From NCBI GenBank assembly GCA_017503065.1, contig JAFVTT010000023.1, forward strand, positions 1-64,000: a stretch of 64,000 nt of DNA. The letters run 5' to 3'. The position numbers and the translations under genes are program-made. How positions within the stretch are numbered: the stretch's first letter is position 1; each line of letters begins with the position of its first letter. This document shows, piece after piece, positions 44,415-59,164 of the stretch. The DNA comes from Bacteroidaceae bacterium. GTDB lineage: Bacteria; Bacteroidota; Bacteroidia; Bacteroidales; Bacteroidaceae. The notes below the pieces were generated by a model. That model made no database searches. It was given only the letters and a program-made list of their open reading frames with translations, and had not been told where the DNA came from.

Positions 44415-46823
44415 TTATGTATAGTGTTCGATATATGTGAATGTAGTCTGACCTATGGAGAACCTGTCGCCATGATACAGTCTCACACGCTTGCCAATGG
44501 CAAGGTTCTTCGTATCCTTGGCAACACCGTCCTCGCAGGCTACCAGGTAAATGTTGCCGCGTGCAGAAACTATCTCGGCATGTATGGGGGCAATGTGGCT
44601 GTTTACGTCCCAAGACATCTGCAGGTTGCAGTCCACGGACTTGCCTATGGTAACTCTTCTGTGAATGGTCTGGGCATTCATCCATTTGTACAAGGCCACC
44701 TCCATGGTCTTTATCGGTCCCTCAACACGCAGGAAATACCTCTTGGCCTGTGGTGCCTGCGTAGCAAGACTGATGGACAGGCCTATGCTGTATATGAGAC
44801 TGCTGACGAGCAGCAAATCGCGCGAATCCACTTGCGAATCCAGGGCATAGTCCCAGACATACATGGAACCGAGGGCGAAGACGATGGCTACAAGTGCCCC
44901 GAACAAAGCCTTGCTCAGCTTGATGTCGGTGCCGTAGGAAACCACGTATGCTATCATGAAACCGTTAAGCGTCCATGGTATCCAGTCTATGAATATTACA
45001 TCGCCGGAAAGATTGAATACATGCTTGACGATGTTGGCAAGTACGAAGGCAATGAAACCGCAACATCCGGCTATAAGTGCCTTGGCAATGACCGCCATTA
45101 TGCGCTTCCACCACCAGTTGCCGGAACTGGAAAGGATACTGAGCAGGAGTGTAAGGAAGGAGCAGATGTACAGGCCGAAGTATGGTGTGTGCGACAAATC
45201 TGCCAACTTTATCCTTACCATGCTGGCAGAAATGTTGTTGTCAGTGGATATGTTGGGAATCCTTGAAACCATGTCTATGAGGTACTCATATCCTGTACCA
45301 AACAGGTTAAGCAGGAAGAAGAGCCAGGCCAGAGCGCCGGCACATGCGCCTGCCAGAAGCCATTTCATATAGTACGGCGCATTGAGCGAGTCATACAGTT
45401 TGTGCGTATTATAGTAGTGGCTACCAGTCTGGCATTTACGCCCGTATTCTGGACATTTGTATTCGTTCTCGTCCCAACAGGACTTGTGCATGACATGCTC
45501 GCAACGAACCACGATGTCATCATCTTCTTGGAAAGGTGCCTTACAGAAATAACATACTTCGTCGACCTGTATGCCATTGAACCCCATATTGCGACCGGTG
45601 TATTTCGTTACGTACTTCCTGAGGAAGAGCCTGTATCGTATCCAGGGCACGATGAACTGGAACACGAGATAGATAATCAGTAACAGGCAAACAACCATAA
45701 CCACACCCTGCACTATTACCCTCCAATCGGAAATGCCGTTCACAGTGATGGGGTTATATACGCTGCCTACAGCGTAATGCCTGTATCCTACGGCAAAGAC
45801 GGTGTCACTGTTGAGCATCTCCACCTTAAACCATCTCTGCTGGCCACGGAAAACCTTGTTGTCGGGATTCTCCAGGTATATGCGTGTGTCGGCACAACTG
45901 TCGCCTTCCAGGCTGAGGATACTTCTGGAGAGGTTTATCCATGCAGATGACGAGATGTATTTGCCTCCCGTATGTCGGGTGAAAATGCCCAACAGCGCTT
46001 CTGCATTGTTCTGGTTGTCCTCAGATTCGGTATCCTTGGCAGCATAGTCCACATAGTACACCGGGAACTTGCAGATGGTATCCTTGTCGTTAAGCAGCAT
46101 GCGCTGCAGGTCGAAATGCATGGGGTCCATGGGACGGTCTCCAGAATAGGTGCTGCCGTCGGACAGGACTATCATCACCTTTTGCCTGTCATTAAGATTC
46201 CTCCAGACGGAATCCTGCCTGATGGAAGGATAGAAACGGGACTTCCTGCCATTCATCTCATCCAGTTTGGACAGCATGGCACGGTAAAGCATCTTGTCGC
46301 CATATTCCTCCGTTACTGGCTGGAAGAAGTTCTCTATGAGATAATCGGTCACGGGAAATGACTCGGTAAGTTCGCTGCCCTTGATGAATGCAATGCGGAG
46401 ATTGTTCTCAGGAAAAACCTCTCTTAGGTTGCTGACCAGTATCATCTGGGTCCTGATGTCCTTTTCGCCCAATGTGAGGTCAGACAGGATAAGGGCATGC
46501 TGGTTGCGTTCTCCTATCAGGTCGGAGATAAGGCTGTGCTTACCCGTCACCTTGGGCTGGGCCTTTTCGTCCACTTCGTCCATGGTGATGTCCAGTTCCC
46601 GGACAGCAACATCCATCTTCTCTATAATGGCTGGAGACGGGGCGAATTCGTCCTTTATCTTTATATCCATCCAGAACTTCTTGTGGCTCTCGTCAAACCC
46701 CAGATTCCAAACCTCCAAGCCTTCTTTCTCGGAATTGGGCCTTGCCGCATGCTCCCGGTTGCCGGAACATGCAGTTGCCAGAATCATCGGCAATACTATC
46801 CAAAGGTATTTGTAGAATCTCAT
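44415..46823 (-). CDS. RING-like / von Willebrand-like / FHA membrane protein
   Basis: An 802-aa protein with an unusual layout. N-terminal lipoprotein-type signal with lipobox LATAC (C19). Residues about 100-310 look like a von Willebrand factor A-type fold (HALILSDLTLGEKD, VMIVLSDGSTYSGD). A membrane segment at about 367-394 is followed by a cysteine/histidine cluster at C424, C427, C441, H443, H446, C449, C457 and C464, which fits a RING-H2/treble-clef order except that the last pair is spaced by six residues. Five or six more membrane segments lie at about 485-690. The C-terminus (722-799) is an FHA domain (VTIGKSVDCNLQ, IAPIHAEIV, GDRFSIGQTTF). It is the candidate E3 and membrane hub of the locus; last gene of the operon before argS. 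Confidence 0.75.
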   Translation of the reverse strand: MRFYKYLWIVLPMILATACSGNREHAARPNSEKEGLEVWNLGFDESHKKFWMDIKIKDEFAPSPAIIEKMDVAVRELDITMDEVDEKAQPKVTGKHSLISDLIGERNQHALILSDLTLGEKDIRTQMILVSNLREVFPENNLRIAFIKGSELTESFPVTDYLIENFFQPVTEEYGDKMLYRAMLSKLDEMNGRKSRFYPSIRQDSVWRNLNDRQKVMIVLSDGSTYSGDRPMDPMHFDLQRMLLNDKDTICKFPVYYVDYAAKDTESEDNQNNAEALLGIFTRHTGGKYISSSAWINLSRSILSLEGDSCADTRIYLENPDNKVFRGQQRWFKVEMLNSDTVFAVGYRHYAVGSVYNPITVNGISDWRVIVQGVVMVVCLLLIIYLVFQFIVPWIRYRLFLRKYVTKYTGRNMGFNGIQVDEVCYFCKAPFQEDDDIVVRCEHVMHKSCWDENEYKCPEYGRKCQTGSHYYNTHKLYDSLNAPYYMKWLLAGACAGALAWLFFLLNLFGTGYEYLIDMVSRIPNISTDNNISASMVRIKLADLSHTPYFGLYICSFLTLLLSILSSSGNWWWKRIMAVIAKALIAGCCGFIAFVLANIVKHVFNLSGDVIFIDWIPWTLNGFMIAYVVSYGTDIKLSKALFGALVAIVFALGSMYVWDYALDSQVDSRDLLLVSSLIYSIGLSISLATQAPQAKRYFLRVEGPIKTMEVALYKWMNAQTIHRRVTIGKSVDCNLQMSWDVNSHIAPIHAEIVSARGNIYLVACEDGVAKDTKNLAIGKRVRLYHGDRFSIGQTTFTYIEHYT

Positions 46824-46845
46824 CGTGTCAATAGTTTGTTATGTT

Positions 46846-47670
46846 TCAGATGGACGGGATGTCTTCGTCGTTCCCCATCATCGCTTTCTTGTATTCTTCA
46901 GCACTCTTGCGCAGCTGCTTGTATGACTGTATCTTGGCATGCACCATGTTGATGAACATCAGTATGATTGCCACGGCGGCAAAACTGAGCAGGTAATCCT
47001 TAATCCTCTCGATTAGAGGTTTGTATTCAGTCTCCTGTATGGTCTCGGATATGCTTTTCAGTTCTATGTAGTTTTCTTCAACCTTCTTCATGCGGTCCTG
47101 CAACTGGGCGTAGGTCTGTGCCGCCGCTCTTGCCGTTTCATAGTTCCTGTCCAACTCGGCAACGGCCAGTTGCTCCTTTACCTTCAGTTTCTCCAGCATG
47201 GGAGCCAGTTGCTCCAACTGCGAATACTGCCTTGCCTCTTCCAACCATTTATGGTATGGTTCCTGTTGTCCCTTTATATACTTCTCTGCCGTCAGGAAAG
47301 CCTCAAACGACTCCAGCCTTTGCCTTAGGGACTGTATGGTGTCGGTCAGTTGCTGCTTGTCCTCCTGGTATTTTGTCGTCAGGTCCAAGAGTTTTTCGTC
47401 CGAGGCTATATCCAGTTGGTACGCTTGTGTGAACACGTTCCATTTGTTGTCGATGGCAGCCATTTCCTTGTCTGCCTTTTCCAGTTGCTTCAGATTGGCA
47501 TAAGGCACATCTGCCGCTATGGCATTTATCTTGTCCACAAAGAGCAACAGTTTCCCTTCCAGTTCCAGCATATCAAAGGAAATGCTGTCTCCGGCAGTCT
47601 GTGCCTTAATCCCCGAACCAAGGAAAATCAGCACAGTACAAACAAAGGCTGTCAGTCCGTTTCTTCTCAT
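46846..47670 (-). CDS. Periplasmic coiled-coil, membrane-anchored protein
   Basis: A 274-aa protein from the ATG at 47670, which overlaps the stop of the preceding gene (ATGA). Signal peptide about 1-23 (VLIFLGSGIKAQ). Residues about 55-215 are long heptad-rich helices, and one membrane segment at about 224-243 (LLSFAAVAIILMFINMV) is followed by a short basic and acidic cytoplasmic tail. It thus spans the periplasm as a coiled coil anchored in the inner membrane, resembling structural parts of envelope-spanning complexes. I recognise no named family; it may be part of the membrane complex of the locus. Confidence 0.6.
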   Translation of the reverse strand: MRRNGLTAFVCTVLIFLGSGIKAQTAGDSISFDMLELEGKLLLFVDKINAIAADVPYANLKQLEKADKEMAAIDNKWNVFTQAYQLDIASDEKLLDLTTKYQEDKQQLTDTIQSLRQRLESFEAFLTAEKYIKGQQEPYHKWLEEARQYSQLEQLAPMLEKLKVKEQLAVAELDRNYETARAAAQTYAQLQDRMKKVEENYIELKSISETIQETEYKPLIERIKDYLLSFAAVAIILMFINMVHAKIQSYKQLRKSAEEYKKAMMGNDEDIPSI

Positions 47671-48818
47671 TTGTCTTTCTCGCAAGTCGTCTTAAAGTAC
47701 CTTTCGGCTTTCTGGAACACATCTACGGCAATCTGTTGCTCTTCGTTCAATTCCACGTCGGTGTACAGATATTGGTTCACCTCGTCAAGCAGTGCCCGGC
47801 ATCTTTTTATCAGGTCCTCCTTCTCCACAACATCAGACGATGTAACCCATCTTATCACATTCCGGTCAATAATCTTGGCAATACCCATTATCCTTTCTGC
47901 AGGCAGGGGCATCTCGGGCCTTTCATTCCTGATGGAGATGAAGATGTCTTTCAAGCGGCAGATGGAATCTACATAGTTGTTGTAATCCCGTATATAGGCG
48001 TTAATGGTAGGGCACGGATAAGTGTCCTTCCGTTTGGGGAACTGCTGTTCCAGCAACTGCCTCATTTCCTCCAGTACCTGCACAGACTCCTTGTTCATGC
48101 TTTCCTCCGACACATATCGCTGGTGCAGGTTCTCATAGGCGGTCCGTATGGTCTCGGCAGACAGTCGGGCCGCTTCTATTTCCTCTTCCTTGCCAAAGCA
48201 CGGGTTGCGGACAATCCGTATGTTGTACTTGCGGTCCAGTCTTGCAAGGTGCAGCACATCATAACGGTTCCTTTTTTTTGCCGATGGCTCCATTACAAAT
48301 ATGTCGTGCAGTGATATGGAGGCCAGCGTGTCCATGCCTGCAATGTCGAACTTCTGCTCTATGTAGTCGTTCTCCATTTTGTAGTCTGTGGGCTGTGGCG
48401 TCAGTCCATCGTAGTTTAGCCAACGCTGGAATACGAACTTCTTGTTGCAGCCCGGAATCTGGTCTTTAAGTTCATCGGTAAGCTTGTATTTCATATCAGG
48501 TGCGCTTTCCACCACATAGGGAAAATGCTCGGGGCGCAACTTGCCTCTGCGTACAACCTGCTTGTAACGTACGTTCTCGTTGAAGACAAACAGACTGCGG
48601 TACGACACCAGACTGACCGTCAGTGAATTTGTCGGTTCGTCAAAGATAATCTTCAGTATCATGTCCATGTCCCTTGCATCCTTCTTCAGTGAAATGGATT
48701 CTGCATAGGACTTTCCGTGTGCTACCGTAACGGTCTTCTGGTTCTGTGCCTTTAACGGACATAGGCCGCACAACACGGAAACCAGAACTGCTGCAATATA
48801 ATATAAGTGTCTTTTCAT
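47667..48818 (-). CDS. Exported protein of the conjugation/baseplate locus, 383 aa
   Basis: The ATG at 48818 gives MKRHLYYIAAVLVSVLCGL, a signal peptide to about residue 24. The first part (about 25-215) is beta-rich; the second half is predicted helical with coiled-coil character. Two or three cysteines in the mature part (PGCNKKF, RNPCFG, PCPTI) could form disulfides. No family is recognised. Spacing (20 nt after the E2 gene; 4-nt overlap with the next) makes it part of the operon, and its predicted periplasmic location suggests an envelope component. Confidence 0.6.
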   Translation of the reverse strand: MKRHLYYIAAVLVSVLCGLCPLKAQNQKTVTVAHGKSYAESISLKKDARDMDMILKIIFDEPTNSLTVSLVSYRSLFVFNENVRYKQVVRRGKLRPEHFPYVVESAPDMKYKLTDELKDQIPGCNKKFVFQRWLNYDGLTPQPTDYKMENDYIEQKFDIAGMDTLASISLHDIFVMEPSAKKRNRYDVLHLARLDRKYNIRIVRNPCFGKEEEIEAARLSAETIRTAYENLHQRYVSEESMNKESVQVLEEMRQLLEQQFPKRKDTYPCPTINAYIRDYNNYVDSICRLKDIFISIRNERPEMPLPAERIMGIAKIIDRNVIRWVTSSDVVEKEDLIKRCRALLDEVNQYLYTDVELNEEQQIAVDVFQKAERYFKTTCEKDK

Positions 48819-48838
48819 TGTTGTCTGTAGGTCTTTAT

Positions 48839-49441
48839 TCAGTCGAAGGCAATCCAGCCCATCGGCTCTCCTTGTCTCATCACCCATCTTGCCACTTTCA
48901 TGTCTTCCGGATAGGGAGGTTCCTGTCTGGCATGGTAGCGGTCGTATCTCAGGTACGATGCTATCCTCTCCACATACCAAGCCAGATCCATGTAGGAATC
49001 CGGTACATTCAGGCAAACCCTGCCGGCGAAGTCCCCGAAGTACCGTATATTGGGATGCCAGGGGTGGGGGATGGGGTTGCCTTCTTCGTCCTGTGTCAGG
49101 AAACGGAAGGCAGGCTGGCTGTCAATACAAGGATAGTCCTCGGGGATATCTATTGCCATCCTGAAGGTTGTTGCAAATACAGGTTCGTTGCTTACACCCG
49201 GTTCGTCCAGCCTCTCCAGGCGTTCCACTCCGCATATACTGCGGATGAGGTATGTTACCAGATACCGTGTCGGCAGTCCTGCCGCGTTCAGACCGGTAAC
49301 CTCAATTCCGATGTCCTGCCTTGCAGCCACACGCTCCTCCAACCGCTTCCATTCGTAAAGAAGCCTGCGGTTGCGCCCGGTCAGTTTTTGTCCGTCTATG
49401 CTTTCCGGCCCTGGTGTCAGGAGAGTGTTCTGTGCAGTCAT
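48839..49441 (-). CDS. E2 ubiquitin-conjugating enzyme-like protein
   Basis: A 200-aa protein with the E2 (UBC) fold signature. The proline-rich strand DIPEDYPCIDSQPAFRFLT matches the F-P-x-x-Y-P...F-x-T core of eukaryotic E2s. It is followed by HPWHPNIRYFG, in which H129-P130-N131 is the E2 HPN motif, and GRVCLN with the catalytic cysteine C143. N131 and C143 are 12 residues apart, longer than in common eukaryotic E2s. The tail WYVERIASYL matches the helix after the active site. It lies 5 nt after the ubiquitin-like gene. It is expected to receive the Ubl from the E1-like protein and pass it to targets, perhaps guided by the RING-like 802-aa protein. Confidence 0.85.
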   Translation of the reverse strand: MTAQNTLLTPGPESIDGQKLTGRNRRLLYEWKRLEERVAARQDIGIEVTGLNAAGLPTRYLVTYLIRSICGVERLERLDEPGVSNEPVFATTFRMAIDIPEDYPCIDSQPAFRFLTQDEEGNPIPHPWHPNIRYFGDFAGRVCLNVPDSYMDLAWYVERIASYLRYDRYHARQEPPYPEDMKVARWVMRQGEPMGWIAFD

Positions 49442-49446
49442 CTGTC

Positions 49447-49764
49447 TTATCCCGGGAACGGGTCAGGGACCAAGAACAGGGAATCCCCGTTCTGGATGTT
49501 ATAGTCTGCCAAGGTCTGGTCGGTCTTGCCTATGCGGGGTCTCAGCACCCTTATTTCATTCACTTCTGTATCCTCCTTGCCGAAAAAGTAGTCGAGGGGA
49601 GCGCCTGTTTCGTCTATTGAGGGGAAGTCGAATATCAGCCTTCCGTCCTTGCCGATAGCATGCTTCAGGTTGCTCATCAGCGTTGAAAGCGGAGCTTCGG
49701 GGTTTACTATGCGGAACTTCACTTTCTTGTTCTTGTAGATTATGTTCAGAAAAAAGTCTTCCAT
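49447..49764 (-). CDS. Ubiquitin-like protein
   Basis: A 105-aa beta-grasp protein. The N-terminal hairpin FFLNIIYKNKKVKFRIV and the C-terminal half match ubiquitin-like folds. Residues 84-99, TLADYNIQNGDSLFLV, align directly with the ubiquitin segment TLSDYNIQKESTLHLV. The chain ends DPFPG with a single exposed C-terminal glycine (G105) instead of Gly-Gly and no extra residues after it, so no processing protease would be needed. A loop insertion of about 15 residues (around 48-65) is larger than in ubiquitin. YukD/EsaB proteins of type VII systems are the nearest secretion-linked analogues. Confidence 0.85.
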   Translation of the reverse strand: MEDFFLNIIYKNKKVKFRIVNPEAPLSTLMSNLKHAIGKDGRLIFDFPSIDETGAPLDYFFGKEDTEVNEIRVLRPRIGKTDQTLADYNIQNGDSLFLVPDPFPG

Positions 49765-49796
49765 ATCTCTTTCCTTGTATTATTCACTTTATGTTG

Positions 49797-51467
49797 TTAC
49801 CCGATGACAATTTTCAACTGTATCGGGTACATTGACGCGCTGCGTACTTCCATCATCTTCTGCAACACCATTTCTGCCTGCGGAATCTTGTCGGCAAAAC
49901 TTCGCTGCACAAAGATGTCGTCCGCCAGCGTTATGACCACTTCCGTTTCAAAGCCGCCGCCCTGGTCTGCACTTACGCTGTTCCTTACGCTGATATTCCT
50001 GATCTGTGATGAGGCAATGTTGTATCTTACCAGCATCTCATTGTAGCAGAATATCTTCAGGTCGGCAGGTGTCACCAGTCTGTTTCCCGTTACCATGAAG
50101 TAGCGCGACAGACTATGCTGGGCATCTGCTCCCTGCACTTCATCATGGCCGGGCACATACCCGCCGGTCCTTTTCGTCCCGGCAAGCGACAAACCTGTGG
50201 GCACGCCGGTAATGTTGCCTCCCTCCAGTACGTTGTTGGCGGCACTTCCCTGTGTGGTCAGATAGTTTACGTGAAGCGACTCCTCCTCGTGACCTTCCGC
50301 CTTCTTCAGTATCAGGTACATCCCGGAGGTGAAGGCATCCGGCGTTTCCTCCACGTATTTCACCAGAGTCTTCAGCCATTGGTACAGGCGTGCCCCATCC
50401 AGTCCGTTCCGTGCCCTCTCAACCTGCATGAAGGCATAGTAGTCTGTGGAATACTTGTCCAGTATGCAGTGCAACAGTCTCAGGAGACCGTTCACGTTGA
50501 AGCGTTGTGTTGCCGCACGGCGTATCACGAATGGGGTGTCTCCGCCAAACATCTGGTCGGCAGACGGTCTCAGCAGATGCAGCATCTGCTCCTTGGGGGC
50601 AATGTGGGCTATGGGGGCATCGGAGGACAAGCGCACGCTTCTTTGCGCCACATTAACCAGTACGGTGGTGTTTAACAGAAGTTTTGTCTTGTCGAAGGCA
50701 AAGTCTGTGCCGATTCCCTTGAATTCGAAAATCAGGTTCAGGCTGTCGTTGGCCTGCTTTACCGGCTCCTCCTGCCAACGGTCCACCACGAACATCCTCT
50801 TGTTGTGCCGGGCAAACAGGTCGAACCATGTTGCACCGGCATCAAACGCCAATGCCGTGTTGTACAGTTGTGTGTCTATGGAGAAGCAGTCTGCCAGCGG
50901 CAGGTTAGCGTATTGCCAAGGCTTTACCAGTTCCACCCGGCGCCCGTTCAGTGTAACCTCCAGATCCTTGAATTGCTCGTTGTCCACCATGAAGGCCAGC
51001 CCTCCCAGACTGGTAACAGGTTCCTTGAAGTTCAAAGTTACCTTCCATCTTCGTGCATCCATCCTCTCAATGGCTTTCACGGAAGCATGGAAGACCTTTG
51101 TCTTCAGCAATGGCATGAAGTCGCACTCGGCACCTCCGATCTGGAATGTATGCCGGCTGTCCAGTTCCATTTCCGCAACGCTTTCGTCGGTAGAGGTCTG
51201 TATGATCGTGCTTGCGGGTATGGCATGCGTCAGTTCGTGTGGAATCAGCATTTGTGCAAAGTCATCCAGCACCTCAGCCTTCAGACGTTCCAGTTCGCCC
51301 TCGGCGATATATTCCTGGTAAGCCAATGCCGTCATCAGCAGCGACACTACGGGATCTTTCTCTATCCCTTCCAGGTGCTCTGCCTGATTTCCCTGCTTCC
51401 AGATGGCTATGGCTTCCTTTGTCAGTTCCTCCGCAATCTGCTGGGTTGCATATATCTTCTGTCTCAT
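49797..51467 (-). CDS. tssF: TssF-like baseplate protein
   Basis: A 556-aa protein with the TssF N-terminal pattern: HLEGIEKDPVVSLLMTALAY, LERLKAEVLDDFAQMLIP, and HAIPASTIIQ, corresponding to the family's DPxVxxLLxxxAfl and the P-x-P-S segment. The middle is beta-rich with cysteine-poor repeats; the C-terminus includes LVTPADLKIFCYNEML. TssF is the large baseplate wedge of type VI systems, forming a TssF2-TssG core. Here it sits between the TssE-like and Ubl genes, 30 and 32 nt apart. The short relative length and the absence of a sheath gene nearby mean it could belong to a divergent system. Confidence 0.7.
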   Translation of the reverse strand: MRQKIYATQQIAEELTKEAIAIWKQGNQAEHLEGIEKDPVVSLLMTALAYQEYIAEGELERLKAEVLDDFAQMLIPHELTHAIPASTIIQTSTDESVAEMELDSRHTFQIGGAECDFMPLLKTKVFHASVKAIERMDARRWKVTLNFKEPVTSLGGLAFMVDNEQFKDLEVTLNGRRVELVKPWQYANLPLADCFSIDTQLYNTALAFDAGATWFDLFARHNKRMFVVDRWQEEPVKQANDSLNLIFEFKGIGTDFAFDKTKLLLNTTVLVNVAQRSVRLSSDAPIAHIAPKEQMLHLLRPSADQMFGGDTPFVIRRAATQRFNVNGLLRLLHCILDKYSTDYYAFMQVERARNGLDGARLYQWLKTLVKYVEETPDAFTSGMYLILKKAEGHEEESLHVNYLTTQGSAANNVLEGGNITGVPTGLSLAGTKRTGGYVPGHDEVQGADAQHSLSRYFMVTGNRLVTPADLKIFCYNEMLVRYNIASSQIRNISVRNSVSADQGGGFETEVVITLADDIFVQRSFADKIPQAEMVLQKMMEVRSASMYPIQLKIVIG

Positions 51468-51497
51468 ACGCTCCTGTGCTTAATGCATCCTGTGCCG

Positions 51498-51938
51498 TCA
51501 GGCCCAGATGTCAAGTGTGTTCTGGTACTTGTATTCACTGCCGGTTTCAGCCAATGTGCCCTTCACCACTATGTATATTTTCTTGTGTTCGCGGATGTAG
51601 GACATCGTCACTGCCACATCACGCAATCTTGTCTCGTACCGTTCTATCAGTTGTTTCAGGTCCACGGCAAAGGTGTTCACATTCCTTGATGAGCCTGAAA
51701 TCTTCTTGTTGTACACGTCTGTAGTATCGTGCTCTGTGGAGTCCAGAACCACGCCCTCCTTTTCGTCGAATATCTCGAACTTCAGGTTATTGAAGATGAA
51801 TCCCATTTCCTGGTCCGACGGATTTCCGCCCACCTGTGTGGTAAGCAGCATGTCCAGGTGCTGGTCTATCGACTGCTTGTCCGAGGATGTACGTTTCAGT
51901 CTTCCCCTTTCTATGGTCAGAGGTATGTTCAGTCTCAT
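51498..51938 (-). CDS. tssE: TssE/gp25-like baseplate protein
   Basis: A 146-aa protein with a gp25-type core: DMLLTTQVGGNPSDQEMGF corresponds to the family's LLxTRxGExxxxPExG. The following helix and strands (TFAVDLKQLIERYETRLRDVAVTM) complete the wedge fold. gp25/TssE nucleates sheath assembly on the baseplate. It is 7 nt downstream of the TssK-like gene and 30 nt upstream of TssF. Confidence 0.65.
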   Translation of the reverse strand: MRLNIPLTIERGRLKRTSSDKQSIDQHLDMLLTTQVGGNPSDQEMGFIFNNLKFEIFDEKEGVVLDSTEHDTTDVYNKKISGSSRNVNTFAVDLKQLIERYETRLRDVAVTMSYIREHKKIYIVVKGTLAETGSEYKYQNTLDIWA

Positions 51939-51945
51939 TGTCGGC

Positions 51946-53091
51946 TTAGATTAGTGGCATGAATTCGTCTTCCTCCTCCTCTTCCTGAGGCACGTACAAG
52001 GCGTTGTACAACGCATCGTAAAGCCCCTGGTACAGTTGGCCGTGCAGTTGTTTGGCCATATCCTCTTCCAGCCACTGGTACAGTTCCCGCTTGAAGTTTC
52101 CGTTTATGTATTCCGACAGGGAGTCCATCAGCGAATCATAGATTTCCCGTTTCAGCGCATCGTGCACCTCGGTGTATAGTTTCTCTTTCAGTTCGGGAAA
52201 CAGTTTCTGGTACAGTTCCTCCTTGATCTGTGCCTTCAGTTCCTCGAAGTCTATCTTGTCATCCTCTGGTGTCACCCCGTCCAGCAGGGTTGACGCCCCA
52301 TGCAGGTACTCAGCCAGCCATTTCAACCATGCCGCCACATCGTAGAAGGAACATTCCATCGGCTCTGTCCTGCCCTCCGTGTTGGGCGACATGATATAGT
52401 AGTCCACCGCCTGCACCAGTTCCTGCAAAGTCTCCACCATCTGCTGTACCCTGTTTTTCATACTGAAGTTTCTCAGCACGAAGGCATAGCGTGTCAGACT
52501 TCTTTTGGCTTCGCCTGATTGCAGGTGCCCATGAACGGCAATTGCCCCCACCTTGTCGGCCAGATCCTGTAGTATTGCTGCATATCTTTCTTCAGATTCC
52601 AGCACGAGGAACGGCGGTATATAGTCACGGTCTATGGAGAACATTCCCTCTTCCACCCTGAACTTCATCAGTGGCATGTGGCCGTTCTTTTCCAGTTCCT
52701 CCAGAGTATAGATTCCGAATTTCGTTTCCGGGCGCAGCATGGGTACACGTTCCTTGGTATAGGACTGCATCTGTTCCGTTTGCGAACATCCCAGGTAATA
52801 TTCCCTGCCGTAGAGCATGGGTATGTCCACCACCACGTTTTCGTCCACGTGAAGCAGGTCTCCCGAAGGCATCAGTGCCGTCACTGTGAGCGGAGAGATT
52901 TCCAGCGTCTTCTTGACAAAGGCGCCTGACTGGCAGAATGTGGTGCCCGGCAGGATGCCGAATTGCGTACCGTAGGCTATCCGCCTTGTCAGCGTCATGT
53001 TGCCGGCAGTGCAGTTGTCCATCTCCACAAAGGTCTGTGCGGAGAGTTCCATTCCGTTTTTCCAGTCTATTCTGGCATTAATGTCTTTCAT
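51946..53091 (-). CDS. tssK: TssK-like baseplate adaptor
   Basis: A 381-aa protein beginning with IDWKNGMELSAQTFVEMDN, which fits the TssK start motif W-x-x-G-M-x-L-x-x-Q-x-F-x-x-D. Beta-rich N-terminal and helical middle regions follow. The final third is strongly acidic and coiled-coil-like, with repeats containing YQWLEEDMAKQL and EEEEEDE near the C-terminus, which is not usual for TssK and may be a new binding module. TssK links the baseplate to the membrane complex in type VI systems. It overlaps the TssG-like gene by 14 nt and precedes the TssE-like gene by 7 nt. Confidence 0.65.
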   Translation of the reverse strand: MKDINARIDWKNGMELSAQTFVEMDNCTAGNMTLTRRIAYGTQFGILPGTTFCQSGAFVKKTLEISPLTVTALMPSGDLLHVDENVVVDIPMLYGREYYLGCSQTEQMQSYTKERVPMLRPETKFGIYTLEELEKNGHMPLMKFRVEEGMFSIDRDYIPPFLVLESEERYAAILQDLADKVGAIAVHGHLQSGEAKRSLTRYAFVLRNFSMKNRVQQMVETLQELVQAVDYYIMSPNTEGRTEPMECSFYDVAAWLKWLAEYLHGASTLLDGVTPEDDKIDFEELKAQIKEELYQKLFPELKEKLYTEVHDALKREIYDSLMDSLSEYINGNFKRELYQWLEEDMAKQLHGQLYQGLYDALYNALYVPQEEEEEDEFMPLI

Positions 53092-53869
53092 CGGTCCGTG
53101 TGTTATAGTTCAGAGTCAAGCCTGCGCCCATTGTTGCCGGGCGGTTGCATTTCAACTCTATCAGGCATTTTGTATCGAAGGGCATGAACCATTCCTGCAT
53201 GAACAGGCACAGTTCCTCCATTTGCTTCTGTTTGTCGTTATAGGCGGTGTTGTCCAGCGAAGGCATCCACACCTGGTATTCTACCAGGGGCTGGCTTCCG
53301 TTTTTCCGCCCGGTGTGATTGTATTGTCCGGTTGTCATCGTCACCCGGTGTCCGGTCAGGGCCTGCAGCACATCGCACAAAGCATGTATGTCGCCCCTCC
53401 TCCGGTTCACCACAGGCAAGAGTGCCATCATTTGGCGCACATAGACGTTCTGCTCTTCCTTGCGGTTCAGATGGAAATATGTCTCCAGGAGACTGTCCAG
53501 TTTGTTTTCCAGCAGTTCTGCCAGTTTCTCCTCGTTCCTGAGGCTCCTTCTCAGCATACGCGAATCAAAAGGCCTGAACAGTTCTTCCAGTCTTGCCTTT
53601 CTCCTCCTGACCTGCTCATACTTGCCTTTGAAGTCCTTGCCCCGGAGTTCCTGCTCTGTGGCTATCAGCCCCTGTGGCAGCAGTTTCAGCATACCGTCGC
53701 GGGCCAGAGTCACCCATCCCTCTTCCCCGTCTATCCTGATGGCATCCTCGTTGTAGTTGCGGTAGAAGGTACCTTTGCAGTTGGCCACCCACCGTTGCAT
53801 CAGTTCGGGGTAGAGATAGTTGAGCAGCACTTCCGCTCTCAGTCCCTGTATGTCGTTCTGTATGGTCAT
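53078..53869 (-). CDS. TssG-like baseplate wedge protein
   Basis: A 263-aa protein whose RRRGDIHALCDVLQALTGHRV segment (about 171-191, the first 20 shown) resembles the RGxxxGLxxxLxxxxG(x)PV stretch of TssG and phage wedge proteins. It has a GMLKLLPQGL segment and a long charged helical middle (about 90-165). TssG pairs with two TssF subunits. The match is weaker than for TssF or TssK and depends partly on position: it overlaps both the E1-like gene (ATGA) and the TssK-like gene. Confidence 0.5.
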   Translation of the reverse strand: MTIQNDIQGLRAEVLLNYLYPELMQRWVANCKGTFYRNYNEDAIRIDGEEGWVTLARDGMLKLLPQGLIATEQELRGKDFKGKYEQVRRRKARLEELFRPFDSRMLRRSLRNEEKLAELLENKLDSLLETYFHLNRKEEQNVYVRQMMALLPVVNRRRGDIHALCDVLQALTGHRVTMTTGQYNHTGRKNGSQPLVEYQVWMPSLDNTAYNDKQKQMEELCLFMQEWFMPFDTKCLIELKCNRPATMGAGLTLNYNTRTDERH

Positions 53870-55113
53870 TGCTCTTCTGCCCTGTCTTTGTTCTGTTTCT
53901 CCTGTGCCACGCTATCCGCCGGGGCCAGTTCCACAAAGTGTTCTCCGTTGTCCGTCCTCACGTGCAGCACGTCCATGTCCGGTATGCCCAGTTGCTGCAA
54001 GGTCAGGTTGCCGTACGGGAAGTCTGTTCCCATCACCCTGAACTCGTGCTGGCAGGACCCTTCAATCTCATCCGGTTCCAATCCCAAGGCATCGGTCAGG
54101 AAGCGTGCCACCTTGCTTTCGGGGAGCATCACCTGCACTTTCCTGCCGTCGCTCCTTTGTTCTATGTAGTCTACCCAGGCCTGGTTCCTGAGCACTATTC
54201 TTGTGCCTCGTCCGCCCAAGTGCCCTTCCAACAGTTTCAGTGCTTCCTGCAACGTGTGGCGGAAGGTCAGTGTGGGGTGTACCGTTATAGGCTCCCATTT
54301 GTCATGCACGGGGCAGTCGTCGTCCCATCCTCTGTGTTCTATCAGGCGTGAGGTCAGATGCTGTCCTTCATAGTAGAACATTTTGCCGCACAACGAGGTC
54401 AGTTCTCCCCGCAGGGTTTCTTCCCCGTGTATCAGTTTCATTGCCTCTTGTGCCTGTACGGCTCCTATTACCGAAGCCACCACCGGTGTTGTGGGTACTC
54501 GCCGTGCCTCCACGTCCTGCTTTATCAGTTCCCGGCACGACACGTTTCGTTTCAGTTCCTTCCATGCCCCGGGTTCCATGGTGCATGCGTAGCAGTTCTT
54601 GCCGGGAACAAACACCTTTGCCACGCCTTCCATGCCTTTTATGCCTCCGTCCACCCAGGGCACTCCTGCCCTCATGCACAGACGGTTCAGCATGTACCTG
54701 GCCTTTCTGTTGTCCAGACATCCCACTACGGCATCCATGCGCCTTATCAGTCCCAACCCAACTTCCGTACAGATGTCGGCCACCAATGGCGTTACCTCTA
54801 CATTGGGGTTGAGCCTTTTTATGGCATGTGCAGCGGCATGGACTTTATGGCATGCTTCTCTGGCATCCTCTTGCGTAAACAGCACGGAGCGTGTCAGGTT
54901 GCTGTATTCCACCCTGTCGAAGTCTACCAGCCACAAATGCCCCACTCCGAAGAGGGCAAGGTCCTTGGCAACTTCGTTTCCCAAGGCTCCGCATCCGACC
55001 ACCATCACGCGGGCACCGCTCACCTTGTGCTGCTTCCACCACGAGAGTTTCGGGAAGATGTCTTCTCCCCATCCCATGTGTGCTTCTTCAAGGCTGGTGT
55101 TGGCCGTTTCCAT
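53866..55113 (-). CDS. E1-like (ThiF/MoeB-fold) activating enzyme with C-terminal beta-grasp-like domain
   Basis: A 415-aa protein. The Rossmann adenylation domain has VVGCGALGNEVAKDLALFG (G40-G45), VDFDRVEYSNLTR and CLDNRKARYMLN. Zinc ligands are likely C174 and C177 (NCYACT) with C267 and H270 (DCPVH). C193 (RNVSCREL) sits where E1s such as UBA3 carry the catalytic cysteine and is the candidate for Ubl thioester formation. Residues about 275-400 form an extra domain ending in LTLQQLGIPDMDVLHVR, which resembles the last strand of ubiquitin-like folds and may correspond to an E2-recruiting module. It is the first gene of the minus-strand operon, with a -7 box 27 nt upstream. Confidence 0.85.
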   Translation of the reverse strand: METANTSLEEAHMGWGEDIFPKLSWWKQHKVSGARVMVVGCGALGNEVAKDLALFGVGHLWLVDFDRVEYSNLTRSVLFTQEDAREACHKVHAAAHAIKRLNPNVEVTPLVADICTEVGLGLIRRMDAVVGCLDNRKARYMLNRLCMRAGVPWVDGGIKGMEGVAKVFVPGKNCYACTMEPGAWKELKRNVSCRELIKQDVEARRVPTTPVVASVIGAVQAQEAMKLIHGEETLRGELTSLCGKMFYYEGQHLTSRLIEHRGWDDDCPVHDKWEPITVHPTLTFRHTLQEALKLLEGHLGGRGTRIVLRNQAWVDYIEQRSDGRKVQVMLPESKVARFLTDALGLEPDEIEGSCQHEFRVMGTDFPYGNLTLQQLGIPDMDVLHVRTDNGEHFVELAPADSVAQEKQNKDRAEEQ

Positions 55114-55139
55114 TGCTCGCGCTCGCGTTTTATTAGGTA

Positions 55140-55147
55140 CAAAGGTA
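55140..55147 (-). promoter_or_regulatory. -7 promoter box for the E1-led operon
   Basis: The minus strand reads TACCTTTG, matching TAnnTTTG, 27 nt upstream of the E1-like gene. A hairpin ACGTTTTT...AAAAACGT (55178-55198) lies a little further upstream, close to the divergent PEGA gene start. Confidence 0.55.
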
Positions 55148-55271
55148 GGAAAACATTGGGAAATACTGCGCTTTGTAACGTTTTTTTTTCAAAAACGTCA
55201 AAAAGACGGCGCCATTTCTCTCTACTTATTGCAAAAAAGCGTACCTTCGGACTCAAAATGTTGGAAATCAT

Positions 55272-56606
55272 ATGCCGAGAGGAATGAACCTGCTTCTTCG
55301 TGTCATACTATGCATGTTGTGCCTAGTCCCTGTGTTGATGTCTGCCCAACAAATCAAGGTGGCAGACTTTGCAAGGCTCAGGAAACCGTTTCTGCGTCCA
55401 AGGCCATACACCGTGGACAAGCAGTTTGCATTGCTGGACCTTTACACACAGGAGAAGGTTTTTGAATTCCTCATCGGTCAGCAACCCGTGCAGGTTCAGG
55501 AGGGGGAGGGCATGGTAACTCTGATGTTGCCCGACATGACCGCATTTTTTACCATAAGGCATCCCGATTACGGACAACTCGTATGGAAGGTTCCCGATGG
55601 TCCCCTGCACAGGAAGAAACGCTACCATGCGCAACTTCTTACGGACAGTCCTGACAAGGAATTTTCCATCGCCCATCAGTGGGCGGTGTTCCGCCTGCAG
55701 CCTGCTCAGGCAATAGTAGCTATAGACAGCACCATGCACCGTACCCTGTCGGGGCAGATACAGGTCTTGCTGCCTGTCGGCAGTCACAGCATCAGAGTGG
55801 AGGCTCCGTTCTACGAGGAACTTACAGACACCTTCGTCATTTCGGATGCCGCCCGATTGGACATGCACATCAGTCTGCATCCGTTGTATTCATATTTGGA
55901 GGTGACTTCCGAAGTACCAGGGGCGGAAATCCGTCTCGACGGTTATCCGATTGGTAAGGGCGAGGCACGCAGCGGACGCATCTCCCCCGGGGTACACGAA
56001 CTTTCACTGTACCGTGGTCCTTTATGCATTCACCGCAGTTCTGTTACCCTGGCTTCGGGCGAACGGCGAATCCTGTCCATCGGTGGTGAAACAGCAGAAA
56101 ACCGCTCCGACGCCTTGTCTGCCAACGATACGCTTTCCGCTCATGATGCCGCCACATCCCTCATTGCACATGACGAGCAGCCCGATTCCTTCCATATCCG
56201 TGCCTTTGACGACAGTACGGAGATTTGGGTGAACCGCGAAAAGGTGGGCTACGGCTCGTGGAAAGGACAACTGGAGTCTGGCATATATGCCGTAAGCACG
56301 CGCAAGGACGGTATGGAGTCGCGTACCCAGTATGTGCAGGTAGGAGGCGGAATCCGGCAGCAAGTGAAGATGCCCACTCCATACGCCTCCTATGGCTGGC
56401 TGAGCGTATCATGCAACGTGGTGGACGCCCAGGTGTGGCTGGACGGAGTGCCGGCCGGCAGGACACCATGCATATTGCCTCCCATGCCTGCTTCCAGACG
56501 CTATGTCATTAAGGTAGGCAAGGAGGGATACAAAACCAAGGAAATAACCGTTTCGCCAAGAGGCAACGACATCTGTGATATAAAAGTAAAACTGAAAAGG
56601 AAATGA
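55272..56606 (+). CDS. PEGA-repeat exported protein
   Basis: A 444-aa protein with an N-terminal signal peptide (LLRVILCMLCLVPVLMSAQ). Four PEGA-like repeats of about 45-70 residues follow the N-terminal third; two clear ones begin YLEVTSEVPGAEIRLDGYPI and LSVSCNVVDAQVWLDGVPAG. PEGA domains are surface or periplasmic binding folds found in secretion and carbohydrate-related proteins. It is the first gene of the divergent operon shared with a 233-aa protein and the PAAR-like protein, 158 nt from the E1-like gene. A second ATG at 55284 would also give a signal peptide. Confidence 0.7.
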   Translation: MPRGMNLLLRVILCMLCLVPVLMSAQQIKVADFARLRKPFLRPRPYTVDKQFALLDLYTQEKVFEFLIGQQPVQVQEGEGMVTLMLPDMTAFFTIRHPDYGQLVWKVPDGPLHRKKRYHAQLLTDSPDKEFSIAHQWAVFRLQPAQAIVAIDSTMHRTLSGQIQVLLPVGSHSIRVEAPFYEELTDTFVISDAARLDMHISLHPLYSYLEVTSEVPGAEIRLDGYPIGKGEARSGRISPGVHELSLYRGPLCIHRSSVTLASGERRILSIGGETAENRSDALSANDTLSAHDAATSLIAHDEQPDSFHIRAFDDSTEIWVNREKVGYGSWKGQLESGIYAVSTRKDGMESRTQYVQVGGGIRQQVKMPTPYASYGWLSVSCNVVDAQVWLDGVPAGRTPCILPPMPASRRYVIKVGKEGYKTKEITVSPRGNDICDIKVKLKRK

Positions 56607-56625
56607 CCCCCCAAAAAACTGAGGT

Positions 56626-57327
56626 ATGAGCGATAAATCTGTAAACGAACTCTTCAATGAGACCAAGTCAAAACTGAACGGCTATGCCATGCTGTTCTAC
56701 TTTCATCTGGCCAACATCTGTATCAAGGCCGATCCCCTGGCACTGCTCTCCACTACAGTGGAAATGGATGGCGCAGAACTGAATCTGGAGGATGTGGCCG
56801 ACGCCGGACTGGCCGATGACTATACATTCTACATTACTCCCAGAGCAGCGGAATATGTCTTCCCCGTATGCAAGGCCATAAAAATGGCGCATCCTGAATT
56901 CAAGATGGAGGAGAAGGTGGAGCGCAATGAACTCTCCGACGAGGAGGAGACCGTCATCTACTACACCATGCCCATAGTGAACGAAGACCGTCGCGACGTG
57001 TGCAATGACTTCATAAAGACCGAGTACGATGTCATCGCCGCCAAGATGGATGTTGCCTTCACCGCAGGTTCAGCCAAGATAGTGGCGACAATGGCAGGTG
57101 CAGAAGCCGAGGCAGTGGACAGGGTGAAGGAAAAACTTCAGGAGGTCTATGACCAGCACAAGCAGATGTGCGACAAGTTACGTGACGAGAAGATGCAGGA
57201 GGTGGAAGAGGCGTACCAGAAATATCTTTCCGAACAGACAGAGCAGAACAAGCAGGCGGAAGAGAAACAGGCTGCCGAGGGCGGTCAGAGTATCTTCAGC
57301 ATGAACATGAACGACGACGACGAATAA
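56626..57327 (+). CDS. Hypothetical helical protein, 233 aa
   Basis: Begins MSDKSVNELFNETK. A globular N-terminal half (about 1-150) and a coiled-coil C-terminal half (about 150-215) end in an acidic tail, NMNDDDE. No membrane segment or signal peptide, so it is cytoplasmic. I recognise no family. It lies 19 nt after the PEGA gene and 38 nt before the PAAR-like gene, so it could be a chaperone, adaptor or substrate for the putative injection apparatus. Confidence 0.6.
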   Translation: MSDKSVNELFNETKSKLNGYAMLFYFHLANICIKADPLALLSTTVEMDGAELNLEDVADAGLADDYTFYITPRAAEYVFPVCKAIKMAHPEFKMEEKVERNELSDEEETVIYYTMPIVNEDRRDVCNDFIKTEYDVIAAKMDVAFTAGSAKIVATMAGAEAEAVDRVKEKLQEVYDQHKQMCDKLRDEKMQEVEEAYQKYLSEQTEQNKQAEEKQAAEGGQSIFSMNMNDDDE

Positions 57328-57365
57328 CGCTAAGTTTCCATTGACCTCGAAAACCCTAAACTACT

Positions 57366-57755
57366 ATGGCAAAATATGTTTGTATGGGCGCCATGTTAAA
57401 GTGCAGTTTTGGCATGACACCTTCCATGCTGATGGTCACAGTCCCCATGCGCCCTATGATACAGAATAAGCCCAAGGCCACCATCATGGACTTCGTTCCG
57501 ATGATGAACATAATGCCTTTCGGTATGTGTCGCTCTATGGCAAATCCCACGGTTGCATCGGCCACGGCAGCCGCTATGGGAGTCCTGACGCCGATGCCGT
57601 GCATTCCGGTTACGGTTGCACCCTGGGCACCAGGAGGCAAGGAACTGATAACTAACATGCCGGCATTGTTGGACAACTGCAAATTGATGTGCGCATATGG
57701 AGGTAATATCTCTATAACCAATCCAGGGCACACGGAGAATACCAAGGCAAAATAA
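57366..57755 (+). CDS. PAAR-like (DUF4280) tip protein
   Basis: A 129-aa protein starting AKYVCMGAMLKCSFG and containing paired cysteines C6, C13, C54, C79, C104 and C109 with MNIMPFGMC and LMCAYGGNIS. This is the DUF4280 pattern, regarded as a PAAR-like spike tip for type VI and other contractile systems. Such proteins sharpen the spike and may carry effectors. It is the last gene of the plus-strand unit beside the E1/E2/Ubl operon and is the strongest sign that the neighbourhood encodes an injection system. Confidence 0.75.
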   Translation: MAKYVCMGAMLKCSFGMTPSMLMVTVPMRPMIQNKPKATIMDFVPMMNIMPFGMCRSMANPTVASATAAAMGVLTPMPCIPVTVAPWAPGGKELITNMPALLDNCKLMCAYGGNISITNPGHTENTKAK

Positions 57756-57973: not shown

Positions 57974-59164
57974 ATGAGCAGTATTATCAATCCATTCGCA
58001 CGTCCGCTGTACGTGATGACAAAACCGGCCGGAGCACATTGCAACTTGGCCTGTGACTATTGCTACTATTTGGAAAAGCAGAACCTGTACAAGAATGAGG
58101 ATAGGCATGTTATGTCCGACCAGCTTACGGAGGTGTTTATCCGCGAATACATTCAGTCTCAGTTCGTTCGTGAAGTGAACTTTACCTGGCATGGCGGCGA
58201 ACCCATGATACGTCCGCTAGACTACTACAGGAAGGTGGTTCGATGGCAGCGGCAATATGCAGAGGGTAGGCTTATCCTGAACTGCCTTCAGACCAATGGT
58301 ACATTGCTTACTCCGGAATGGTGCCGCTTTCTGCACGACGAGGGGTGGCTGGTTGGCATAAGCATAGATGGTCCGCAGGATATGCACGACGCATACCGTA
58401 CGAAGCGTAATGGTGCTCCGACATGGGAAAAGGTTATGCGAGGTATTGAAATGCTTGAGCGTTATGACGTGGAGTGGAACGCAATGGCTGTGGTGAACGA
58501 TATTACAGTTGCACGTCCGCTGGATTTCTACAGGTTCTTCCGAGACGAACTGGAGTGCCGGTATTTGCAGTTTACTCCTGTGGTGGAAAGGATACACCGG
58601 CATAGCGACGGACGCCATCTGGCACATGTTATGGATGGCGAGGAATATGAGGTGGCTCCTTTCAGCGTGACTCCCGAGGCTTGGGGAGAATTCCTATGTG
58701 CCATATTTGACGAGTGGTACAATAATGACGTAGGGGAGATGTTCGTGCAGACCTTTGAGGCAACGTTGGCCAATTGGGCTGGTGTAACGCCTGGGGTATG
58801 CTCCCTTTCTAACTGGTGCGGTCATGCAGCCGTGATGGAGCACAACGGAGACATTTATTGTTGCGACCATTTTGTGTTCCCGGAGTATTATTTGGGTAAT
58901 ATCCGTAACCGTGGCATTCTGGAAATGCTGAACAGTGAAAAGCAGATGGCTTTTGCAGGCATGAAAACAAAGGGGTTACCCACACAGTGCAGGCAATGTC
59001 AGTGGCAGTTCGCCTGCCATGGGGAATGTCCAAGAAACCGTTTTACCAAAACTAAGGACGGAGAAGCAGGACTGAACTACCTTTGCCGTGGTTACCAACG
59101 TTTCTTTGAACATTCGGCTCCTTTCATGGATAAACTGAAACAGAAGTTTTGCGATAAGGAATAA
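57974..59164 (+). CDS. Anaerobic sulfatase-maturating enzyme (radical SAM)
   Basis: Oxidises the active-site Ser or Cys of sulfatases to formylglycine using S-adenosylmethionine. The 396-aa protein starts at MSSIINPFARPLYV. The radical-SAM cluster is CNLACDYC (CxxxCxxC), GGEPMI follows, and the C-terminal SPASM region has extra clusters with CSLSNWCGHA, CCDHF, CRQCQWQFACHGECPRN. It can serve the Ser-type sulfatase at 19771 in trans. Confidence 0.94.
   Translation: MSSIINPFARPLYVMTKPAGAHCNLACDYCYYLEKQNLYKNEDRHVMSDQLTEVFIREYIQSQFVREVNFTWHGGEPMIRPLDYYRKVVRWQRQYAEGRLILNCLQTNGTLLTPEWCRFLHDEGWLVGISIDGPQDMHDAYRTKRNGAPTWEKVMRGIEMLERYDVEWNAMAVVNDITVARPLDFYRFFRDELECRYLQFTPVVERIHRHSDGRHLAHVMDGEEYEVAPFSVTPEAWGEFLCAIFDEWYNNDVGEMFVQTFEATLANWAGVTPGVCSLSNWCGHAAVMEHNGDIYCCDHFVFPEYYLGNIRNRGILEMLNSEKQMAFAGMKTKGLPTQCRQCQWQFACHGECPRNRFTKTKDGEAGLNYLCRGYQRFFEHSAPFMDKLKQKFCDKE

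Follow-up and report, generated by a model that had tools for sequence, protein, structure and literature searches.

A predicted ubiquitin-like conjugation cascade as part of a type VI secretion system in Bacteroidales and close relatives

Type VI secretion systems (T6SSs) of Bacteroidota have been described as having the membrane complex TssNQOPR for an anchor, whose component TssN contacts TssK and bears an EccD-like ubiquitin-fold domain (PMC10781749). In the parts of that study cited here, the complex “or part of it” is reported for all 443 systems of 1253 complete genomes, and a docking role is proposed for the cytoplasmic ubiquitin-like domain of TssN in canonical systems (PMC10781749). 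Ubiquitin-like conjugation cascades of bacteria form another described kind of system. Iyer et al. 2006 (PMC1779556) predicted that bacterial RING, E1, E2 and JAB proteins and YukD-like ubiquitin-like proteins (Ubls) act as conjugation systems, and the term “type VI” occurs 0 times in the main text of that paper as far as it is available; likewise, “ubiquitin” and “ThiF” occur 0 times each in the available text on the T6SS loci GA1-GA3 (PMC4714493). Here, we describe a locus in a stretch of 64,000 nucleotides (the window) from a Bacteroidaceae bacterium (contig JAFVTT010000023.1), in which a ten-gene operon codes for an E1-like activating enzyme, four baseplate proteins of the TssG, TssK, TssE and TssF types, a Ubl, an E2-like conjugating enzyme, two envelope proteins (Env1 and Env2), and a membrane protein with a RING-like cluster and an FHA domain. 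This locus is almost certainly one half of a distinct T6SS of Bacteroidales and near kin that possesses its own Ubl cascade, i.e., of an integrated system. Its carriers are gut bacteria with kinship to Bacteroides.

T6SSs and Ubl cascades are each of a known kind, and their union in one conserved machine did not turn up in the literature searched. Searches of open-licence PubMed Central yielded no publication in which a T6SS is combined with an E1-E2-Ubl cascade, and an earlier interpretation made from the DNA letters alone (the sequence-only reading) knew of no described system combining such a cascade with an injection baseplate. To our knowledge, no other secretion machine has a built-in Ubl cascade, and the Ubl proteins of type VII systems (EccD, YukD, and EsaB) have, as far as we know, no E1-E2 partner, whereas E1, E2 and RING proteins accompany the Ubl in the T6SS operon described here. 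A survey of Prok-RING/YukD-Ubl/E2 gene neighbourhoods by Burroughs, Iyer and Aravind (Mol Biosyst 2011) may have noted this RING/E2/Ubl neighbourhood.

Relatives of the locus were collected with E2 as bait. Searching genome contigs with an alignment of E2 sequences (A1) returned 112 pattern matches. Relatives account for 100 of these, and the analysis was confined to the best 80 loci; their record titles name Bacteroidales and, for a few, Bacteroidia only. Gene presence was scored with the window proteins, and alignment rows were hand-picked for length and spread, a wider E2 alignment (A7) being made without L075 and L078. Uninterrupted and in the order of the window, the ten operon genes occur in 67 of the 80 loci. 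For these 67, the median of the largest gap between operon genes is 36 nt, and no such gap exceeds 281 nt. The operon is rearranged in two loci (L077 and L080), and the remaining 11 loci, most of them cut by contig ends, keep the order of those genes that are present. Ubl and E2, found in all 80 loci, are the most constant proteins, though E2 served as bait; TssF was found in 78, TssK, TssE and Env1 in 77 each, E1, TssG and the RING protein in 76 each, and Env2 in 71. For the genes that lie divergently in the window, the counts are 63 (DUF4280), 59 (PEGA), and 51 (RRF-like). Xylanibacter ruminicola D31d, Bacteroides mediterraneensis An793 and the type strains of Mediterranea massiliensis and Millionella massiliensis are among the carriers of the cascade, and its occurrence in named strains makes the system testable.

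The flanks of these loci carry TssC (PF17541, 5.3e-100), Hcp (PF17642), and the OB domain of VgrG (PF04717). TssC is encoded on the same contig as E2, as identified by equal length of the contigs, in all 14 genomes chosen, at a distance of 8.3-17.1 kb from E2, and TssB was assigned in relatives by homology and position only, as it matches no Pfam family. In Millionella massiliensis, a stretch of about 25 kb begins with genes for a ClpB/ClpV-type ATPase, TssB, TssC, two Hcp proteins, one uncharacterised protein, VgrG, a protein of about 600 residues and DUF4280, and continues with the RRF-like and PEGA genes and then the ten-gene operon. The layout is nearly the same in the closest relative of the window (L001 in genome G001), and whole clusters were mapped, e.g., in G010, G001, G004, G008, G060, G331, and G243. 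Chance co-location was rejected as an explanation, considering the gene order conserved in 67 of 80 loci and the sharing of a contig by TssC and E2 in each of the 14 genomes. The sequence-only reading had proposed that E1, E2, Ubl and a candidate E3 are joined to baseplate genes of a contractile injection machine, and this proposal is supported; a cluster not conserved as a unit would have spoken against it, and the unit proved to be conserved. It had called the locus type VI-like; the injection-type baseplate is borne out, whereas “-like” says too little, as relatives possess TssH, TssB, TssC, Hcp, VgrG, and DUF4280. The DUF4280 protein of one relative also matches IglG (NF041248, 1.3e-7) below the cut-off. 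The repeat-rich protein of about 600 residues (e.g., L003:102-1889), for which there is no Pfam family, forms one sequence cluster in 43 of the 80 loci and adjoins VgrG where mapped.

The machine resembles T6SSiii of Bacteroidota, as far as described in PMC10781749 and, for GA1-GA3, in PMC4714493, in possessing TssH, TssB, TssC (PF17541), Hcp (PF17642), VgrG and TssE/F/G/K. In addition, a vWA domain occurs in an envelope component of either system (TssR in T6SSiii, a homologue of the RING protein in the Ubl system) and a ubiquitin-like fold is found in both. In contrast to T6SSiii, Ubl systems lack TssN or TssR matches above cut-off in 20 of 21 genomes and possess the E1/E2/Ubl/RING cascade instead, and their TssC proteins fall into other branches of the tree. 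With the Bil, Bub and CBASS cascades the system shares a ThiF-type E1, an E2 of the UBC fold, a Ubl and, in some cases, a JAB protease; it differs from them in that the cascade sits in a T6SS operon, is accompanied by a membrane RING-FHA protein as candidate E3, and shows a JAMM motif in two of 80 loci. The set of parts is also like that predicted by Iyer et al. 2006 in the sections cited here (PMC1779556), the present RING being weakly of the Prok-RING_1 type.

Among the cascade proteins, E1 displays a GxGxxG motif (residues 40-45), D64, K90, D134 and a cysteine, C193, which we take to be catalytic by analogy with MoeB/ThiF, while C174, C177, C267 and H270 are presumed zinc ligands; a C-terminal domain of about 110 residues follows. 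The best matches of its profile in PDB are UBA7, UBA6 and UBA1 (7e-35, covering residues 22-165), family and PDB profile searches also relate it to MoeB/ThiF, and BubCD was matched at 1.2e-12. Of the 76 loci with an E1 match, two are gapped at the scored region; in all 74 aligned loci G40, G42, G45, D64, K90, D134, C174, C177 and C193 are kept; C267 and H270 are kept in 75 of 75 aligned, and position 75 varies (69 R, 3 K, and 2 H among 74). E2 matched PF00179 below the curated cut-off in a single-sequence scan (2e-4) and its profile gave no match to PDB sequences at 0.01, and therefore a structure model was made. By this AlphaFold2 model and structure comparison, E2 adopts a UBC fold; H129, P130, N131 and C143 are invariant in the 80 loci and W155 is present in 77. 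A search for E2 in plasmids and phages gave no match.

The Ubl matched Rad60-SLD at 5.4e-4 in a single-sequence scan, again below the curated cut-off, and adopts a beta-grasp fold by the AlphaFold2 model and structure comparison. The best Foldseek match reached 1.7e-3 and none was obtained at E <= 0.001; the fold assignment thus rests on topology, the VIA-align Z score, and sequence resemblance. The best structural matches include EccD5 domains, tied with talin F0, and 8tyz, a bacterial E1-E2-Ubl complex, appears at rank 16 of the Foldseek list. In searches of the Ubl profile against PDB sequences ubiquitin is only weakly matched; the tiny E-values result from adding up the repeats of polyubiquitin. 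G105 is kept in 80 of 80 loci and is always the final residue, the C-terminal ends being PDPFPG (58), PDPIPG (10), ADPFPG (10), and SDPIAG (2). Four divergent Ubls of 23-29% identity likewise terminate exactly in AG, and residues beyond the glycine occur in two outlying cassettes, those of G030 (AG-YLVV) and G517 (PG-GK). That the products of the genes at 48839 and 49447 are of E2 and Ubl folds, on which the sequence-only reading had staked its interpretation, is borne out by both models and their structure comparisons.

The last gene of the operon codes for the RING/FHA membrane protein, a candidate E3. Ligands of its RING-H2-like cluster are C424, C427, C441, H443, H446, C449, C457, and C464, with the last pair spaced C-x6-C. 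A single-sequence scan matched FHA above the cut-off (5.4e-5) and Prok-RING_1 below it (1.7e-4). The protein was found in 76 loci, one of them gapped, and all eight ligands are kept in the 75 aligned ones, so that the RING-like cluster noticed in the letters proved constant. Its N-terminal region is homologous to vWA domains; VWA_2 was matched at 7.2e-8 in a homologue and vWA was not matched in the window protein.

The assignments of the baseplate proteins, which had been made from the letters and have stood, differ in strength. TssE has a match above its cut-off, and the NCBIfam matches of TssK (TIGR03353, 2.8e-9) and TssE (TIGR03357, 2.8e-7) are both under the NCBI equivalog cut-offs. TssF was aligned by hhalign to TssF of a canonical Bacteroidales system with a probability of 99 (3e-18). 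The TssG-like protein, the weakest of the four assignments, has no TssG match in Pfam or NCBIfam, and an hhalign comparison of its alignment (A5) with a PF06996 TssG from a canonical system of Bacteroidales reached a probability of 94 (1.1e-7), with partial overlap. Searches of PDB sequences with the TssG and TssF profiles gave nothing meaningful. Spurious Tss assignments were rejected on the basis of the profile comparisons of TssF and TssG and of TssC, Hcp and VgrG in the clusters of relatives. Env1 (scanned from a start at 48830) and Env2 belong to no convincing family in Pfam or NCBIfam.

The distribution of TssN was studied in three samples, comprising 198 Bacteroidales (E2 in 4, TssC in 6, and TssN in 3), 151 genomes from the same family as G008 (6, 12, and 3, respectively), and 296 Bacteroidota (3, 18, and 17). 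The search for E2 used A1 (1e-10) for the Bacteroidales and G008-family samples, and the wider A7 (1e-8) for the Bacteroidota sample. Of 35 distinct genomes with TssC, 22 have TssN, nine have E2, none has both, and four have neither. The probability of zero overlap between TssN and E2 is 7.7e-5 with the two centre genomes excluded and kinship ignored. TssN was matched in G450, which gave no TssC match, the contigs of G250 and G307 end early, the TssC of G307 grouping with a Ubl system, and the TssC match of G382 (1.2e-28) resembles another kind of contractile system. Among the 21 Ubl-system genomes (24 searched), TssN was found above the cut-off in G005 only, and the same holds for TssR_VWA. 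This genome of Bacteroides mediterraneensis (L012, L095, and L107) carries two T6SSs, one of the Ubl type and one of the TssN type, its second TssC being identical to the TssN-type TssC of G245, and therefore exclusion operates between systems and not between genomes. Of the canonical membrane complex of Bacteroidota, neither TssN nor TssR thus seems to be recognisable in Ubl systems. TssO, TssP and TssQ gave no match in the Ubl T6SS loci searched pairwise with one canonical set, but they are strongly divergent proteins (PMC10781749).

From the phylum sample, G010 was the only TssC genome included in a TssC tree of 30 rows, which also leaves out G243 and G382; in this tree the TssN systems fall into a single clade. 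Ubl systems are located at three places, i.e., the clade of the window (16 rows), G242/G322/G331, and G060, which is sister to the TssN clade. Judging from this topology, the cascade may either be old and have been lost twice, or have been gained repeatedly as a block. With G060 as sister of the TssN clade, an older machine licensed by Ubl may have given rise to the canonical membrane complex with TssN, or may have been displaced by it.

A JAMM motif (HxHPx7Sx2D) is present in seven of seven aligned proteins encoded next to the RING gene of divergent cassettes, with Pfam JAB matches above the cut-off in G423 (2.8e-8) and G517 (1.3e-7). In L077, L080, and G192, too, the motif lies beside the RING gene. 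Since only two of the 80 loci, and not the window, have the motif, the putative JAMM deconjugase seems to belong to older branches and to have been lost from the main clade. Three genomes (G423, G517, and G030) harbour E1-Ubl-E2-JAB-RING cassettes and give no PF17541 TssC match at 1e-20. The cassettes of G423 (L149/L150) and G517 (L151/L152) adjoin genes for PAAR and eCIS_core proteins (PF13699, 5.1e-17 and 1.7e-67), an nSTAND1 ATPase is encoded near that of G423, and a PKD protein downstream of it matched TssP at 3e-8. The G030 cassette (L123/L136) adjoins genes for SrfB (PF07520, 1e-213) and SrfC-like (PF10139) proteins. Further Ubl-like repeats, fused to other sequence, were seen in G030.

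For the function of these parts we propose that E1 would adenylate the C-terminal glycine of the Ubl and take the Ubl onto C193, from where it would be handed to C143 of E2. The RING of the membrane protein would direct transfer of the Ubl at the envelope where the baseplate docks, the target being a subunit of the baseplate or of the membrane complex, with TssK as first candidate. Conjugated Ubl might then be a docking or licensing element joining the baseplate to the envelope complex, like the ubiquitin-like domain of TssN, and FHA would read a phosphothreonine state. As a whole, the best explanation is probably that the cascade takes the place of TssNQOPR by conjugating Ubl where baseplate and membrane meet. 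Its parts are of different strength. Active conjugation by the cascade is very likely, while the chances that assembly or docking is its purpose seem evenly balanced, and the interleaving of cascade genes with tssGKEF in one operon fits a role in assembly. The sequence-only reading had suggested that the cascade may tag effectors, control assembly or act on delivered proteins; of these, a role in assembly at the membrane would be our preference. A reading in which a Ubl pathway of its own builds or licenses the machine, with E1, E2, a membrane RING E3 and, ancestrally, a JAMM protease attaching Ubl covalently to the baseplate or membrane complex, is a tentative proposal and somewhat more doubtful than an assembly or docking purpose.

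Several observations weigh against this account. Within the window the first half of the machine is missing, as nine query proteins (eight from G001 and one from G010) for sheath, tube, spike and ClpV genes matched no open reading frame at 1e-3. The cassettes of the three genomes devoid of a TssC match indicate that the cascade can work outside a T6SS. One Ubl-system genome, G004, shows a single TssN match (9.2e-4), albeit below the cut-off. No sequence homology was detected by hhalign between the Ubl profile and TssN (probability 0.3) or between the RING protein and TssR (probability 0.4), so that a replacement of TssNQOPR is suggested by gene content. In G223 (L128/L129), a T6SS has neither TssN nor E2 matches and is accompanied by genes for a protein kinase, FHA, FHA-trypsin and PP2C proteins and an M23 peptidase; the Ubl module is thus not the sole alternative to TssN, and the T6SS of G223 possibly represents a third type of envelope or regulation. 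Finally, Ubl conjugation and its presumptive target are derived from gene content, residue conservation, and folds.

A different use of the cascade would be to mark cargo (Hcp, VgrG, the protein of about 600 residues, or effectors) with Ubl for loading or secretion; alternatively, the Ubl might itself be delivered. VgrG, several Hcp types and the gene for the protein of about 600 residues are located within the same clusters as the cascade, and cassette variants adjoin eCIS_core and PAAR proteins; in nearly all loci, however, the cascade genes are interleaved with tssGKEF and not with vgrG or hcp, and the RING and JAMM proteins resemble membrane proteins by sequence, which makes this use unlikely. 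Slightly less credit still is due to a reversible conjugation that would regulate the machine or control its quality (firing threshold, disassembly, or turnover) and be read together with threonine phosphorylation via FHA. The FHA domain itself, JAMM deconjugases in older branches, a protein kinase gene near the Ubl locus of G331 and the kinase/FHA/PP2C T6SS of G223, which has no cascade, speak for such a switch, but reversal seems not to be essential in the main clade, where so few loci have the JAMM motif, and no proteolytic partner was seen for it. Ubl, E1 and E2 could also be structural scaffolds only, like YukD/EsaB or the EccD domain of type VII systems, and would not conjugate at all; the presence of EccD5 domains among the top structural hits for the Ubl and the EccD-like domain of canonical TssN (PMC10781749, in the part cited) are in keeping with this. 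Yet HPN and cysteine of E2 in 80 of 80 loci, the E1 cysteine in 74 of 74 aligned ones, a Ubl ending at glycine even at 23-29% identity, and the JAMM proteins of relatives are hard to explain without catalysis, and scaffolding alone appears very improbable.

The lowest probability of all, next to negligible, is given to an antiphage or cofactor (sulfur-carrier) module which lies beside T6SS genes by chance. E1-E2 modules of the Bil, Bub and CBASS types are defence systems, and MoeB/ThiF are relatives of E1; the adenylation part of E1 (residues about 25-155) is also matched by PADLOC E1-E2 models (best 8.7e-24). However, an E2 plus a RING protein is not known to be part of sulfur-carrier pathways. 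At 0.01, none of the PADLOC models (library of 2023) was matched by Ubl, E2 or the RING protein, and because only the adenylation part of E1 does, defence is an unlikely purpose of the cascade, as judged from these comparisons. Given also the order within one operon with tssGKEF and the linkage to TssC in 14 of 14 genomes, such a bystander was rejected. If conjugation at the baseplate-membrane interface is true, bacterial Ubl conjugation would gain a role outside defence and cofactor chemistry. The system bears on how some Bacteroidota T6SSs manage without TssN, and its RING, FHA and JAMM parts constitute a eukaryote-like signalling set that can be compared with regard to the origin of ubiquitin signalling.

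In the window, all ten minus-strand genes of the sequence-only reading were found at their coordinates between 55113 and 44415 (Table 1), families being assigned by single-sequence Pfam and NCBIfam scans of the window proteins. Intergenic gaps along the operon measure, in order, -4, -14, 7, 30, 32, 5, 20, -4, and 22 nt. Because they range only from -14 to 32 nt, one transcription unit is likely, as had been proposed from ATGA overlaps and short gaps. As for the divergent genes, the earlier assignments as PAAR-like and PEGA are sustained, and the gene then regarded as unknown is RRF-like according to PF01765. In the divergent intergenic region, TACCTTTG shows a weak resemblance to the -7 element of Bacteroidales.

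Table 1. Coordinates of the features of the Ubl T6SS locus in the window
Feature	Position	Strand	Details
E1-like activating enzyme	53866..55113	-	415 aa; PF00899 1.6e-54
TssG-like baseplate protein	53078..53869	-	263 aa; hhalign to canonical Bacteroidales TssG
TssK baseplate protein	51946..53091	-	381 aa; TIGR03353 2.8e-9 and PF05936 0.0049, both below curated cut-offs
TssE / gp25 baseplate protein	51498..51938	-	146 aa; PF04965 1.1e-8 (above cut-off); TIGR03357 2.8e-7
TssF baseplate protein	49797..51467	-	556 aa; PF05947 2.9e-4 (below cut-off); hhalign to canonical TssF
Ubiquitin-like protein (Ubl)	49447..49764	-	105 aa; C-terminal end ...PDPFPG
E2-like conjugating enzyme	48839..49441	-	200 aa; H129-P130-N131, presumed catalytic C143, W155
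Envelope protein Env1	47667..48818	-	383 aa; signal-like N-terminus (by eye); start taken at 48818
Envelope protein Env2	46846..47670	-	274 aa; coiled-coil-like, hydrophobic segment C-terminal (by eye)
RING/FHA membrane protein, candidate E3	44415..46823	-	802 aa; hydrophobic segments (by eye), C-terminal FHA
PEGA-domain protein	55272..56606	+	444 aa; PF08308 1.3e-19
RRF-like protein	56626..57327	+	233 aa; PF01765 8.4e-8
DUF4280 PAAR-like spike-tip protein	57366..57755	+	129 aa; PF14107 6.1e-34
Divergent intergenic region	55114..55271		TACCTTTG on minus strand, ~55147-55140 (sequence scan; weak)

The RRF-like protein is a frequent member of the cluster among the 80 loci. A radical-SAM/SPASM protein (57974-59164) comes right after DUF4280 in the window, and as the closest relative has the VgrG half at this site, its gene marks a break in the cluster. 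Positions 29400-37421 of the window hold an open reading frame of 2673 residues beginning with MKKKLFAVAMAAILLAPSALQAKVKHLLPKPQQ, and an open reading frame with a similar start is located downstream of the cluster in G001.

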